Origin: Psococerastis gibbosa
Taxonomy: Eukaryota > Arthropoda > Insecta > Psocodea > Psocidae
DNA: 64,000 bases
Direction: 5' to 3'
Assembly (NCBI GenBank): GCA_963971405.1
Contig: OZ020484.1
Coordinates: 35,238,770 to 35,302,769, forward strand
Shown here: in pieces, positions 26,361-41,547 of the stretch
Numbering within the stretch: the first letter of the stretch is position 1
How the letters are laid out: every line of letters starts with the position of its first letter
Program-made: the position numbers and the translations under genes
The notes under the pieces: model-generated
The model's database searches: none
What the model was told of the DNA's origin: nothing
The model's input: only the letters and a program-made list of their open reading frames with translations

Positions 26361-27170
26361 GAAATATTCACTCAGCAACTGCTATACAGAATTATTCAAT
26401 GAAACCTGGGTGATCTATTGCATATCGTGCTATCTTGAGATGTATTTCCATATTGTCAACTTCTGAATCTTGGCTGGTTTAGACAGCGATTTTTCACGAC
26501 CTCTATAGCGGAAAATTTGGCTCTTCTCAGATAGAACCAATCGGATATCATAAATTACTCGTCTCGCTTTGCACTCTCTTCCAAATATCTGCATGATCCC
26601 TGGGCTCATCCTCTCTACATTCTAAGAAACATATCTTCCCAACGTCAAATCCGTTAGAGAACCATTCTATCACAGCAATTCATCATCTATGGCACCCCAA
26701 CGCAAAATTTCTAGTTTGTTTTTCACTCAATTGAAAAACGGAGGAATCTGGGAGCACCGGATTGGATTTCAGATAAGATGATGTAATCGAAGGCATTTTT
26801 CTGGAACATTCGTATGTCACAACCAATGTCACACTATTTCTAGGTTTTTCGTGGGTGCTTTGAGTTTAGCAAAAAATACGTTTTAATTTTTAACAAAACT
26901 CTGTATGTCAACATTGCAGCATTAAAAAAAAAATTACAAATTACAAAACCTACTAGGATTTTTTTACATTAGAATAATAACCGAACGCGTTTAAAAAGAG
27001 TCATCCACGCGCTCATCAATTAATGCATACCTAACAGCTACGCACAAGTTCTTTAACATAGGCAACTTTTATAATTATTATGATCGCTAGATAATTATCG
27101 CTACTTCGGCAGAGAAAAGACACAACTCTAAATCTATCAACTCACAGAAATTCAAGTTTCAAGTTTTTTT
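26361..27170. other. No supported gene
   Basis: No bounded structure seen. Confidence 0.45.
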
Positions 27171-27295
27171 GACGAAACGTTTGGAAGTTCACTTTCAATT
27201 CGACCACGGCCCATCAGCCCGGATTCTACTGGTTCTTCAATCGACTCCGGCCGTGAAAGCATTTGCAGTTACTCTGCAATTACATTAAAAAAAAT
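27171..27295 (+). repeat. 5'-truncated copy of the hammerhead-like element
   Basis: Starts abruptly at GACGAAACGTTTGGAAGTTC, the 3' part of the hammerhead-like motif, and continues with CGACCACGGCCCATCAGCCC, GATTCTACTGGTTCTTCA and CCGGCCGTGAAAGC, as in the right arm of the foldback at 35198-35627. The upstream half of the motif is missing. Confidence 0.7.
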
Positions 27296-34764: not shown

Positions 34765-34965
34765 TTCATGTAGATTATACCTAGAGTAGTGGCTTTCACC
34801 CGAAAGTTTGTTGGTTCGAGTCCCCCGCTTGCTAACTTTTCTGGCCATGCTTTGGAGGGGATGTAAAGCAGGTGGTCCCGAGTCTTCCCACTATTTTAGC
34901 TGTACAGCCCCAACTCCGCTAGATTGGCTTAGTAGGTAAAACGGCAAGACTCATTATGTGTTTAT
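34765..34965 (+). repeat. tRNA-derived SINE, near full length
   Basis: A box TAGAGTAGTGG (34782-34792) and perfect B box GGTTCGAGTCC (34813-34823). Between them CTTTCACCCGAAAG resembles the anticodon arm of a tRNA-Glu(UUC). The body continues with CTTGCTAACTTTTCTGGCCA, GGCATGTA-like, CAGGTGGTCC, then CCCAACTCCGCTAGATTGGC, shared with 50575-50690 and 55690-55898. The tail is AT-rich. Flanking duplications not identified. Confidence 0.8.
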
Positions 34966-35059: not shown

Positions 35060-35197
35060 CGATGGCAAGGTTGATAGCGTGCTTGTACTTGTGCGAGTCT
35101 CAGCACGCCATGCGATGTCGTAACTCAACACGGGTACTAACTTACAGAGGTACCAGAAGAGGTCAATCGGATACATTCATTAAATTGTTTGCATGCA
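35060..35197 (+). repeat. Interspersed repeat family F
   Basis: Shares ACTTGTGCGAGTC, GCCATGCGATGTCGTAACTC, AACACGGGT and CGGATACATTCATTAAAT with 57225-57350, and a shorter part with 50030-50125. It abuts the foldback at 35198. Confidence 0.6.
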
Positions 35198-35248
35198 GAA
35201 CCAGTAGAATCCGGGCTGATGGGTCGTGGTTGAATTGAAAGTGAACTT

Positions 35249-35289
35249 CCAAACGTTTCGTCAACATCTACGGTCGACATCTTCAGTGG
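35249..35289 (-). ncRNA. Hammerhead-like ribozyme motif, left arm
   Basis: On the minus strand: CCA, then CTGAAGA (matching the hammerhead CUGANGA core), then one extra T, then GTCGAC-CGTAGAT-GTTGAC, a 6-bp stem with one G-U pair and a 7-base loop, then GAAAC, then GTTTGG. CCA can pair with TGG to form stem I, and AAACGTTT is self-complementary, as in dimeric hammerheads with a tiny stem III. The extra T before stem II departs from the canonical core. Confidence 0.45.
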
Positions 35290-35535
35290 CGCTGCGTAGA
35301 CTTCGTACCTCGGTGGCTCCGTAGCCAGTGACTGGGTAGGGGGCTGGCGGGGGCTGGCGGGGGCTGCGCACTGACCTTTATATCTGGACGTTGTTGTTGT
35401 TGTTGTGTTGAGAGCGAGGATATACTCGCTCTCAACACAACAACAACAATAACGTCCAGGTATAAAGGTCAGTCCCCTACCCAGTCACACGCTACGGAGC
35501 CACTGAGGTATACAACCTTCGAAGTCTACGCAGCG

Positions 35536-35576
35536 CCACTGAAGATGTTGACCGCAGATGTTGACGAAACGTTTGG
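35536..35576 (+). ncRNA. Hammerhead-like ribozyme motif, right arm
   Basis: CCACTGAAGA, then T, then GTTGAC-CGCAGAT-GTTGAC, a stem that pairs through two G-U wobbles, then GAAAC and GTTTGG. The sequence differs from the left copy at stem positions but keeps pairing. Activity is not shown. Confidence 0.45.
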
Positions 35577-35627
35577 AAGTTCACTTTCAATTCGACCACG
35601 ACCCATCAGCCCGGATTCTACTGGTTC

Positions 35628-36755
35628 TTCATTTGACTCCGGCCGTGAAAGCCTTTGCAGTTACATTGTCTGCATGCAATCAACCTTTTTTTATAAGAAA
35701 CGAAAAAAAATTGATACCAAGTTTTAAAAGATAAGTACTGGAACATAATTAGGAGAGCCTTTAGCCGATAACAAATGTGGGCACTAAATGCCTCAGTTGT
35801 GACGGATCACTTCCTAAAAGAAAATAACAGAGTAAAAAACTAGAAGCCACGGATTTAATGAACCAGTGACAATTAGGGAAAGACTCGAGCGCAGCCTACC
35901 GTTCCGTAAAGTCAACTGTGTCCCGTACCACTCTCATTTATCATCCCTTCCTATATAATAACAGACTTTGTTTATTTCTCATGAGCTTTGACATTATAAT
36001 GTTTAATTGTTTAAATTCCGTTGATTTCTGGAAGTTCACAGAGTTGCAGAGAGCAGCACTACAAGTACAGCGGACGTCCATTTTTAAGTTATACTAAAAA
36101 ATTAGCCCAAGATGGTGGCCTAAGCAGAGACATTTTCGGATGGGGTAAACTCGACCACACCTGGTGGATGGTTTCAAAAAGCAAGTTTTATTCGAGGTTA
36201 AAAAAAAGTGCACCAGTGCAGTGGATTGCAACCCCCACACTCTCCATCTTTTGAACAAAATAATTTTCTTTGGAAATATCCATCGTAGAGCTAGACACCT
36301 AGCGGCCAACTGCAGCACTATGCTGACTCATGACAATTCCCATGCGTTTCGTTACACCAGATGTTGCCAATCACAACTCTTAAGACTTGCCATAAAATGT
36401 GTTCCAATTCTAAAAAATATATACTTAAACATGCTAGAACACAATGGACCTTATCAAATACTTTAAAGTTGCCAACCTATTAGAAGTAGTACCAGGATAA
36501 TTTGTTAAAATTGAAAATCATATGTTATCCACCTCCCTAAATTTCAACCTAAGTAAAAGCTGAGGAGCAAAATGGCAAACTTCAAAATCGTATTAAAAGT
36601 AAATTGCAATATCATCAAGTTTTGCCTCATTGTTGTGTTACAGCATTAGAACTCGGCAACATTGTCAGAAGAGAGAGCAACTTTGGGTTTCCTCTCCAGC
36701 TGTTGATTGCCATTCCAGGGAGTTCTTTGAAGTGTGAATATGTACATCTGAGCTC
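35628..36755. other. No supported gene
   Basis: Continues the element 3' part (to about 35680), then AT-rich sequence. The plus frame 36604-36840 runs into the tandem repeat and is not supported as a gene. Confidence 0.4.
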
Positions 36756-37390
36756 CATCTCACCTTTCTTACACCGAGGTTATTATCCCGCTGGAGACGT
36801 CTTCAAAGATGCCAACACACAGGCGCTCATATCCGGTTGAGAGGTTGGCACAATTGCTACGAAAAGAGAGATGCACAACTCTTAAATGCTTCCATCGCGA
36901 GATGTTTTAATGGCGTTGACACTAAAGTGGTTTTTATTAAAGAAATGGCAAGGGATACTGAAATTTAGTTTTGAATAGTCTCTCCTCGTTTTTCCCAGGC
37001 TCGTTGTCATGATTTACCATTCGAAGCAATATCTTCAGTGTTGTCGAGACCTCTCCAGCCTACATAGGGTTATTTTTATTTAATTAGAAATACCTTCAAT
37101 CTCACCTTTCTGATACCGAGGTTATTATCCCGCTGGAGACGTCTTCAAAGATTCCAACACACTGGCACTCACATCCGGTTGAGATGTTGGCATTATTGCT
37201 ACAAAAAGGGAGATACACAACACTTAAATGTTTCCATCGTGAGCTGTTTTAATGGCGTTGACACTAATGTGGTTTTTTTAAAAAGAAATGGCAAGATTGC
37301 TGCAAGGCAAGATGCTGAAATTTAGTTTTGTACAGTCTCTCCTTATTTTTCACTCGCTCGATGTCACAATTAATTTACCTTTTGAAAGAA
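36756..37390 (+). repeat. Degenerate tandem duplication, period about 342 bp
   Basis: Both units contain ATCTCACCTTTCT, CCGAGGTTATTATCCCGCTG, GAGACGTCTTCAAAGAT, ATCCGGTTGAGA, AATGGCGTTGACACTAA and AGTCTCTCCT. Unit 1 starts about 36756, unit 2 about 37098. No recognised coding content. Confidence 0.75.
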
Positions 37391-40324: not shown

Positions 40325-40715
40325 ATTATAATTACAAAAGCCCTCACGGCCGGAGTCAAATGACGAAGCAGTCGATCTGAAAGCATGTTTCCAAACGTTT
40401 CGTCAACATCTGCGGACAACATCTTCAGTGGCACTCTGCAAACTTCAAATAATGTGACTGGTAGGTTTAGCAGCAACTGATTGAGCAAGGTCCTCGGGGA
40501 CCGGGAATCAAGTTGAGTAGGCAGCGAGTCAATCAGGGAGTAGGGTGTGTTCGCCTCCCACTCTTTCTTTTAGTATTATTAGTCCCCCGAACAGTTGCTA
40601 CTCAGCCTCCGAAATACAATCTTAGAAGTCACTGAAGATGCCGATCGCAGATGTTCGGAATGTTCGGAAGTAAGCCTTCAATCGACCACGGCCCATGAGC
40701 CCGCTTTCTATTACT
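40325..40715. repeat. Second inverted locus of the hammerhead-like element
   Basis: Left side holds CACGGCCGGAGTCAAATGA and a minus-strand motif (40391-40431): CCACTGAAGA, T, GTTGTC-CGCAGAT-GTTGAC, GAAAC, GTTTGG. Right side holds a plus-strand decayed motif near 40628-40668 where the stem reads CCGA ... TCGG. The outer part CGACCACGGCCCAT follows. The two motifs face outward as at 35198-35627 but about 190 bp of unrelated sequence separates them. Confidence 0.65.
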
Positions 40716-41547
40716 TCATCAATTATTCAGTGTATGTAATTTAAAACTTTGGTAGTAAAATAAATGAATAAATAAATAACACAAAAGTGATAGATTTAAG
40801 GTTGCCGACACTCTTAAAAAATAAGGAACTTAGGGAGATAAATAAAGTACGAAAATTCAGTAGTCTACGATTACATTGAGTCTTATTATAAAAAGAAGTC
40901 TTCCAGCTGTGCCACGTGGGAGAAAAGGGCAAGTGAATTTGGGGAGAATATCAATTGAGAATATTCAGCTACAGATGAATTTGACAGCAACACCAGCAGA
41001 GACGCCAGCAAACTTGGCAAATCACGCCGCACACGTCCACATTCATTCACAAGCTCGCTGCCGTCTGTTGTTAGCTCTGACAATGTTTACTGCAAGCCTA
41101 AATATTTATAATTTCCATAACGTTCTTTCATTATCATTATTTATCATCTCGACAGAGAGGCATTTGTTTAAAAGTCAGTTTATTTGCATTGAGTTTTATT
41201 GTAGAAGATTTTTCATGGGCTGTATAATATGAGTTTACTTTTTGTAACTTCCTTAAAATGATGCTGGTCACCCCAGGTTCACTACTAATACTGCCATTTT
41301 TTCAAACTTCAAACCCAAGTAGTTGATCAAAAATAATAATTTGTAATAAGTAGCCTCTGGATGATATACAGGACATGATATTTTCCCCACCCTGCACCGC
41401 TGTAGTAAACGGCAGGGAGTGAGATGCGATACCATGAATTTATGTTTTTGGGAGAATAAGACGACAAAGGTTTTTCCTGTGTGTTCTGCTTTGGATTTAG
41501 ACAGAGCAATTTAGACATTTAGACAAATTTAGACACAGCAATGCAGC
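40716..41547. other. No supported gene
   Basis: The plus frame 40876-41232 (118 codons) overlaps a minus frame and lacks recognisable motifs. No exon-like segment accepted. Confidence 0.4.

Follow-up and report, generated by a model that had tools for sequence, protein, structure and literature searches.

A palindrome with two hammerhead-like motifs in Psococerastis gibbosa, read as a truncated Penelope-like insertion with unlike ends

What places two mirrored hammerhead-like motifs within one near-perfect palindrome of ~470 bases in the genome of Psococerastis gibbosa, and does either motif do anything there? We addressed this in a window of 64,000 nucleotides (contig OZ020484.1, positions 35,238,770 to 35,302,769), in which the outer arms of the palindrome (35193-35305 and 35520-35632) are 96% complementary and are followed inwards by further arm pairs of 41 nt (90%) and 61 nt (89%). 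A sequence-only reading had described a palindrome with two mirrored hammerhead-like motifs at 35198 to 35627; both motifs lie where it put them and its left end stands, but its right end falls short, because the insertion reaches ~35666 and is then followed by a duplication at 35667-35678 (Table 1). The pseudo-LTR is present twice, facing outwards, within a 12-bp duplication, one end being short and the other tailed, and the two arms join head to head at the hairpin that begins the pseudo-LTR. We hold with high confidence that the palindrome is a non-autonomous, 5′-truncated insertion of a Penelope-like element (PLE), and that it carries minimal type I hammerhead motifs, most likely as passengers.

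Table 1 Features of the palindrome and of related copies in the window
Feature	Position	Strand	Remark
Left target-site duplication, TGTTTGCATGCA	35186..35197		12 bp, pairs with 35667-35678, one mismatch
Left arm, inverted pseudo-LTR, short 3′ end	35198..35421	-	Starts GAACCAG; no tail
Hammerhead-like motif of left arm	35249..35289	-	Stem II GTCGAC/GTTGAC; one loop change
Hairpin, 5′ end of pseudo-LTR	35401..35442		Palindrome centre 35421/35422 inside its loop
Right arm, pseudo-LTR, long 3′ end	35401..35666	+	
Sense hammerhead-like motif	35536..35576	+	Sequence pattern; numbering by hand
ATG formed by A9, extra U and G10.1	35545..35547	+	Here MLTADVDETFGSSLSIRPRP...; opens the element's frame in relatives
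3′ tail, TTCATTTGACTCCGGCCGTGAAAGCCTTTGCAGTTACAT	35628..35666	+	Right side only
Right target-site duplication, TGTCTGCATGCA	35667..35678		
Older, decayed related insertion	40326..40724		Same inverted layout, with third motif
Short 3′-end-only copy of same element	27169..27272	+	With tail; 104 nt, 97%

The match of the left duplication to the right side can be extended further upstream. The older palindromic insertion consists of pieces 73-84% identical to the element at locus L005; it too has a long and a short end, and its copy of the motif (40391-40431, minus strand) has one stem II pair broken. Elsewhere in the window, a direct repeat pair of 188 nt (89% alike, 342 apart) precedes one of 61 nt (82%, 357 apart) at 36754-37371, and a stretch at 34801-34960 contains GGTTCGAGTCCC, which we take to resemble the B box of a tRNA-derived SINE; an ARAGORN scan of the window found no tRNA.

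A search of the host genome (409 Mb) with the 430-bp palindrome returned at least 97 matches (40 of 2809 candidates scored), many of them covering only its right half, ~230 bp. We read 36 further distinct loci, excluding L001 (the window locus again) and L014 (the same place as L003). At L005, an open frame of 764 aa runs into the palindrome unit, which is the end of a larger element. This frame matched the reverse-transcriptase model RVT_1 (E = 5e-06, 26.8 bits, below the cut-off of 29.6) and the NCBIfam reverse-transcriptase models (best E = 1.1e-10, below the curated cut-off). A GIY-YIG-like motif (GVYRI...EVYIG) is readable in it by eye; no match to a GIY-YIG endonuclease was obtained in Pfam, PHROGs or PDB, the frame as a whole matched no PDB sequence, and no relative of the protein was found among IMG/VR viral contigs. 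At least 64 matches came from a protein search of the host genome in which 59 of 6250 candidates were scored; a second family, at ~73% identity, is among them. In that second family, L389 holds a direct tandem copy whose second frame begins with the ATG of the motif, no earlier ATG lying in that frame. The traits present are those of PLEs: tandem copies making pseudo-LTRs, inverted pseudo-LTRs, 5′ truncation, variable arm length, an optional 3′ tail of the 30-40-bp class, and short target duplications. The element is therefore taken as a PLE and the unit as its pseudo-LTR, and the link to PLEs that the sequence-only reading had drawn by inference is borne out at the level of sequence, the unit being the 3′ terminus of an element that has a reverse-transcriptase frame. 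The window copy is truncated and lacks that frame. Long PLE protein matches also occur head to head over several kb (C14:10761630-10766503, C20:3490681-3495572, and C12:23344425-23349403, with the 3′ ends scored).

End types were read by eye and measured from the long 3′ end of the L005 element, a long end lying at 0-5 nt and a short end at 29-37 nt; the short end of the window insertion (left, at 35198) can be placed at 33-38 nt, and its right end (~35666) is long. Both ends were readable in 26 main insertions from the 36 loci and the three insertions in the window, and a short end was paired with a long one in 26 of 26. A target duplication scoring ≥8 was present in 24 of the 26, against 7 of 140 in a mismatched-pair control, and the duplications comprise 11-16 aligned bases in nearly all cases. 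The two insertions lacking one at that score are L021 and the insertion at 40326, where a target duplication was looked for and none was clear. For family B, seven end-type predictions were written beforehand; five were scorable and all five were right, the remaining two elements having been left unscored, with a tandem pseudo-LTR there. Together with one family-B pair known before, short and long ends were paired in 6/6, with exact duplications of 12-13 bp. In two further families, five clear pairings of short with long were found among eight pairs (duplications 12-14 bp, end offset 42-45 nt), three pairs (L412, L415, and L416) being left out. Across all families, unlike ends were observed in 37 of 37 scorable two-ended insertions.

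Thirteen insertions with a single 3′ end went unscored, namely the copy at 27169-27272 in the window and those at 12 of the 36 family-A loci (L016, L017, L019, L020, L024, L026, L029, L030, L032, L033, L034, and L037). Six of these loci (L016, L017, L020, L026, L029, and L030) do have a second arm, which ends at some other point of the element; later events or the limits of the fetched stretch possibly cut L029 and others. Diverged fragments at L003, L010, L018, L026, L031, L032, L033, and L035 were excluded from scoring. Among the uncounted cases, L415 and L416 look short and long by eye, and so does an older inverted fragment pair at L031 (670-839), whose ends appear long (2 nt) and short (38 nt). 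At L412, a pair of the GGTGTAACACC family, one arm borders sequence like the PLE family of the window, possibly a nested or adjacent insertion. Several arms (within L002-L038) stop at the 5′ hairpin of the pseudo-LTR, ~269-271 nt from the 3′ end, and these stops may mark where the transcript begins at its 5′ end or where the polymerase halts.

The unlike ends in all 37 insertions support two reverse-transcription starts per insertion. Staggered target strands would both prime reverse transcription of the element RNA, the two strands would use different start sites out of a fixed pair, and a head-to-head junction of their cDNAs would yield a palindrome. A single start followed by self-priming, in which one cDNA or antisense RNA folds back at the pseudo-LTR hairpin and copies itself, was proposed for the rotifer Penelope (PMC3846280), and it would fit the palindrome centre within the hairpin loop, the arms that end at that hairpin, and the private variants that the arms of one insertion can share (as both L035 arms do). 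Self-priming would be expected, however, to leave the same outer terminus on both arms, whereas every scorable insertion is short and long; moreover, nearly all of the unlike ends are linked by a target duplication, and many arm pairs are unequal in length (e.g., 1122 and 63 nt in L027). We therefore regard self-priming as improbable, although it is the best placed of the competing accounts. Arm divergence does not discriminate between fold-back and two templates (within-insertion mean 0.027, 17 pairs; between insertions 0.030, 1414 pairs; copies below 92% identity excluded).

The motifs themselves are 41 nt long and share one arrangement (CCA-CTGAAGA-T-6-nt stem-7-nt loop-stem-GAAAC-GTTTGG). 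In the sense motif, stem I is CCA/TGG (35536-35538/35574-35576), followed by CTGAAGA (35539-35545), an extra U (35546), stem II (35547-35552/35560-35565), GAA (35566-35568), and stem III ACGT (35569-35572); H17 is U 35573, and the predicted cut falls between U35573 and U35574. The two stems II are GTTGAC/GTTGAC and GTCGAC/GTTGAC, as had been noted, and G-U pairing holds in both. When compared with a published definition of the hammerhead core (PMC3088659, in the sections available to us), both palindrome motifs contain C3 U4 G5 A6 N7 G8 A9, G12 A13 A14, A15.1-U16.1, and H17. They depart from the textbook core in that stem II does not directly follow A9; the single base that had been noticed before stem II is indeed there, one U being inserted between A9 and the stem. 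The pattern CTGANGA, one nucleotide, a 6-bp stem, and GAAA occurs twice in the window and in none of 100 dinucleotide shuffles; the version lacking the extra nucleotide is absent from the window and turns up a single time in the 100 shuffles. As a whole, the motif agrees with a minimal type I (dimer-type) hammerhead whose stem III (ACGU) is self-complementary, a feature that, in the available parts of PMC7761336, marks dimeric minimal hammerheads and is known from PLEs.

The stems were then compared across element families. Among 28 distinct motif strings from the host genome, collected by similarity of loci or by the inserted-W pattern and required to have a stem II of ≥4 bp, T is the inserted base in all 28, and a short palindromic stem III ending in U16.1 and followed by H17 is present in 25; in these 25, stem I pairs at 3/3 positions in 15, at 2/3 in nine, and at 1/3 in one. 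Other families yielded 26 pattern matches, and in 23 of them stem II is at least 4 bp long, two of its pairs being fixed by the pattern itself. With one representative from each of six stem families, 6 of 7 pair positions have changed on both sides. That all 42/42 pairs are intact in these representatives is by choice, as they were picked with intact stems and a stem II of 4 bp was required; with the pairing slid by one, 15/30 and 8/30 remained. As judged from these alignments, stems I and II differ between families of the host genome with compensating changes, and in this respect the hammerhead interpretation put forward earlier is supported by sequence.

The same cannot be said of the stem difference between the two arms, which is not compensatory evidence. 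Among 55 copies (those below 90% identity excluded), changes in stem II kept the pair in four cases, three of them the same C-to-T change, and broke it in seven, where random single changes keep 7 of 36. The left-arm stem II (GTCGAC/GTTGAC) is the commonest form among copies, that of the sense arm has a CpG in which C has become T, and the difference between arms looks like decay. The core is changed at 8 of 495 sites in the 55 copies, so that the motif decays as elsewhere in the element. There is no sign that selection maintains single copies, and function, if any, would lie at the family level.

In families A and B, the element's frame opens at the ATG that A9, the extra U, and G10.1 make up, and a motif kept for protein coding only, as the start of one frame and the end of the frame upstream, would need no RNA fold. 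Such a motif would lie in the first codons of the frame, as it does in both families, and would be conserved as a stretch: one copy each of families A and B are 97-100% identical per 30-nt block over the last 120 nt, from motif to tail (the final block at 29/30 by hand count with host letters excluded), and 41-83% identical per block over the preceding 150 nt. In other families, however, the letters differ and stems I, II, and III mostly still pair, and the GGTGTAACACC family has the same AUG with a stop after two codons and nevertheless keeps the motif. We consequently consider coding alone to be a poor explanation, ranking it somewhat below self-priming. Because of that early stop, the U is not there solely for the frame; the idea that it exists only to make AUG is further weakened by viral-contig hammerheads that carry the U (see below). 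On the RNA, cleavage at 35573/35574 would put the AUG on the 5′ fragment, apart from the rest of the frame, and cutting and translation of the same RNA would then be mutually exclusive. If functional, the ribozyme, the start codon, and the reverse-transcription start would be packed into ~130 nt. A more general proposal, that every two-ended insertion represents two target-primed reverse transcriptions from start sites ~30-45 nt apart, and that a ribozyme core holds the AUG by means of a tolerated extra U, with cutting and translation excluding each other, seems to us to have about as much for it as against it.

How serious an objection is the extra base? The pattern CTGAWGAWGG...CCGAAAC, in which the inserted base is A or T, has 1674 matches in the host genome, against five for a reversed-pattern control. 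Among the first 100 of the 1674 matches listed, the inserted base, read by eye, is T in 99 and A in one, only these two being allowed by the pattern. A pattern with no insertion and with N7 free has 27 matches (control: 3), 14 of which are one string that can be read as containing an inserted G. In IMG/VR viral contigs, type III hammerheads with three perfect stems have this core too, and between A9 and stem II they likewise carry an additional base; with the base left free in the pattern, it is U in 34, G in three, and A in two of at least 39 distinct sequences among the matches listed. They share with the window motif the core and mostly the extra U, but have full stems and show no link to a retroelement. 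Examples are found in L042, L052, L059, L122, L123, L139, L295, and L323, with several per contig in L295 and L323. In published tests, other insertions in the core reduced hammerhead activity (PMC3088659, as far as the available text covers them). Because the extra base is the norm in the host genome and is present in three-stem hammerheads of IMG/VR, it is no strong objection, and on this sequence evidence the extra U appears to be a recurrent hammerhead variant and no defect.

The Rfam covariance check that had been suggested was run on the window and on the motif, and it gave no hammerhead match at any threshold tried. This outcome says little, since most of the intact canonical hammerheads in the controls also escaped Rfam. 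At six loci with the extra U, only tRNA matched at the gathering threshold, and one of the six gave no hammerhead at E up to 10. In a control of four loci at E up to 0.5, Rfam detected one canonical type III hammerhead in L190 (53.6 bits), and a weak match in L160 fell below the gathering score. It missed the two canonical copies in L107, three of the four canonical ones listed in L160, and the copies with an inserted base in L107, L052, and L190. Some miRNA-like Rfam matches were rejected, as they fall on the long hairpin of the palindrome with scores below the gathering scores of their families. A missing Rfam match alone is thus no ground for dismissing such motifs.

Whether the two motifs could act at this locus depends on how its RNA would fold. 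The motif would cut only where two sense copies pair as a dimer, either as direct repeats within a tandem transcript or between two separate RNAs. The mirrored arrangement does not provide such a dimer: on either strand one motif is sense and the other antisense, and RNA transcribed from the entire palindrome is predicted to form one long hairpin (-394.8 kcal/mol, z = -35). Because the palindrome transcript would fold in this way, its motifs are most likely passengers, probably doing nothing at the locus. Folded as single RNAs, the motifs are no better than shuffles (z = -0.76, -0.29, -0.26, and 0.45). For the sense arm, the hammerhead fold is predicted at -3.2 vs. -7.1 kcal/mol for an alternative, and for the monomer of the common family form at -6.0 vs. 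-7.1 kcal/mol. Of three forms tested, that of the left arm alone folds as a hammerhead, and in dimer predictions it alone gives both stems II and the AAACGUUU helix.

Two further explanations concern the origin of the repeat. A retrozyme-like, non-autonomous element spread by RNA circles, with the hammerhead repeat as its unit, would account for a small hammerhead-bearing repeat of ~230 bp in many copies, but the unit forms the end of elements that have a reverse-transcriptase frame, into which the arms reach to varying extents. Furthermore, among the first 100 of the 1674 motif places listed, all 14 neighbor pairs less than 1 kb apart, read by eye, have the minus-strand motif on the left and the plus-strand motif on the right. 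Mirrored hammerheads therefore recur in the host genome, and we rate the retrozyme-like account as very unlikely. A DNA transposon of the foldback or MITE type, bounded by long terminal inverted repeats and carrying the motif by accident, would explain the inverted repeats at both ends and the fairly constant length of the target duplications, but is hardly credible given that no scorable insertion has two like ends, that inner arm lengths vary, that the coding part is a reverse transcriptase, and that motif stems change in step between families.

Taken as a PLE insertion, the locus has close counterparts. Cervera and de la Pena in 2014 and Lunse, Weinberg and Breaker in 2017 reportedly described minimal type I hammerheads of PLEs, and the 2017 study is said to have treated dimeric hammerheads. 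The available sections of a review (PMC7761336) describe thousands of copies of minimal type I hammerheads in many animal genomes, some of them mapped to PLE pseudo-LTRs, and the window motif resembles these in its tiny or missing helix III and its dimer type. In the Poseidon PLE of Anolis (PAc; PMC11167929, in the sections available), which has another host and another sequence, the hammerhead likewise lies at the junction of pLTR and ORF, the ORF begins at the start of stem II, and C3 and G8 precede the start codon. There, too, two reverse-transcription starts are present, whose spacing explains the "tail", and both target strands are cut and extended; the in vitro work detected no difference between the strands in where synthesis starts, whereas here each scorable insertion combines a short end with a long one. 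The same sections report that the Anolis hammerhead cut only with its protein present, that it was dispensable for insertion in vitro, and that no RNA-seq reads ended at its cut site.

The Penelope of Adineta vaga (PMC3846280), in the portions available to us, also has inverted pLTRs, a 31-bp tail optionally on one pLTR, and head-to-head junctions, together with target duplications of 8-10 bp and palindromes at the 5′ end of some pLTRs. That paper reads the inversions as self-priming, whereas the end types observed here favor two separate initiations. We did not find a strict rule of one short and one long end stated in the parts of the PLE literature searched, and we do not claim that the rule is unpublished. 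The locus is of a known kind of element and is well explained as such; it stands out by the pairing of unlike ends and by the standing odd base.

The pairing of a short with a long end, with no exception so far, speaks against self-priming and makes the model of two starts testable by sequence alone in other genomes. The host genome contains many readable insertions, which bear on how PLEs insert and on the reasons for their inverted pseudo-LTRs and their hammerheads.
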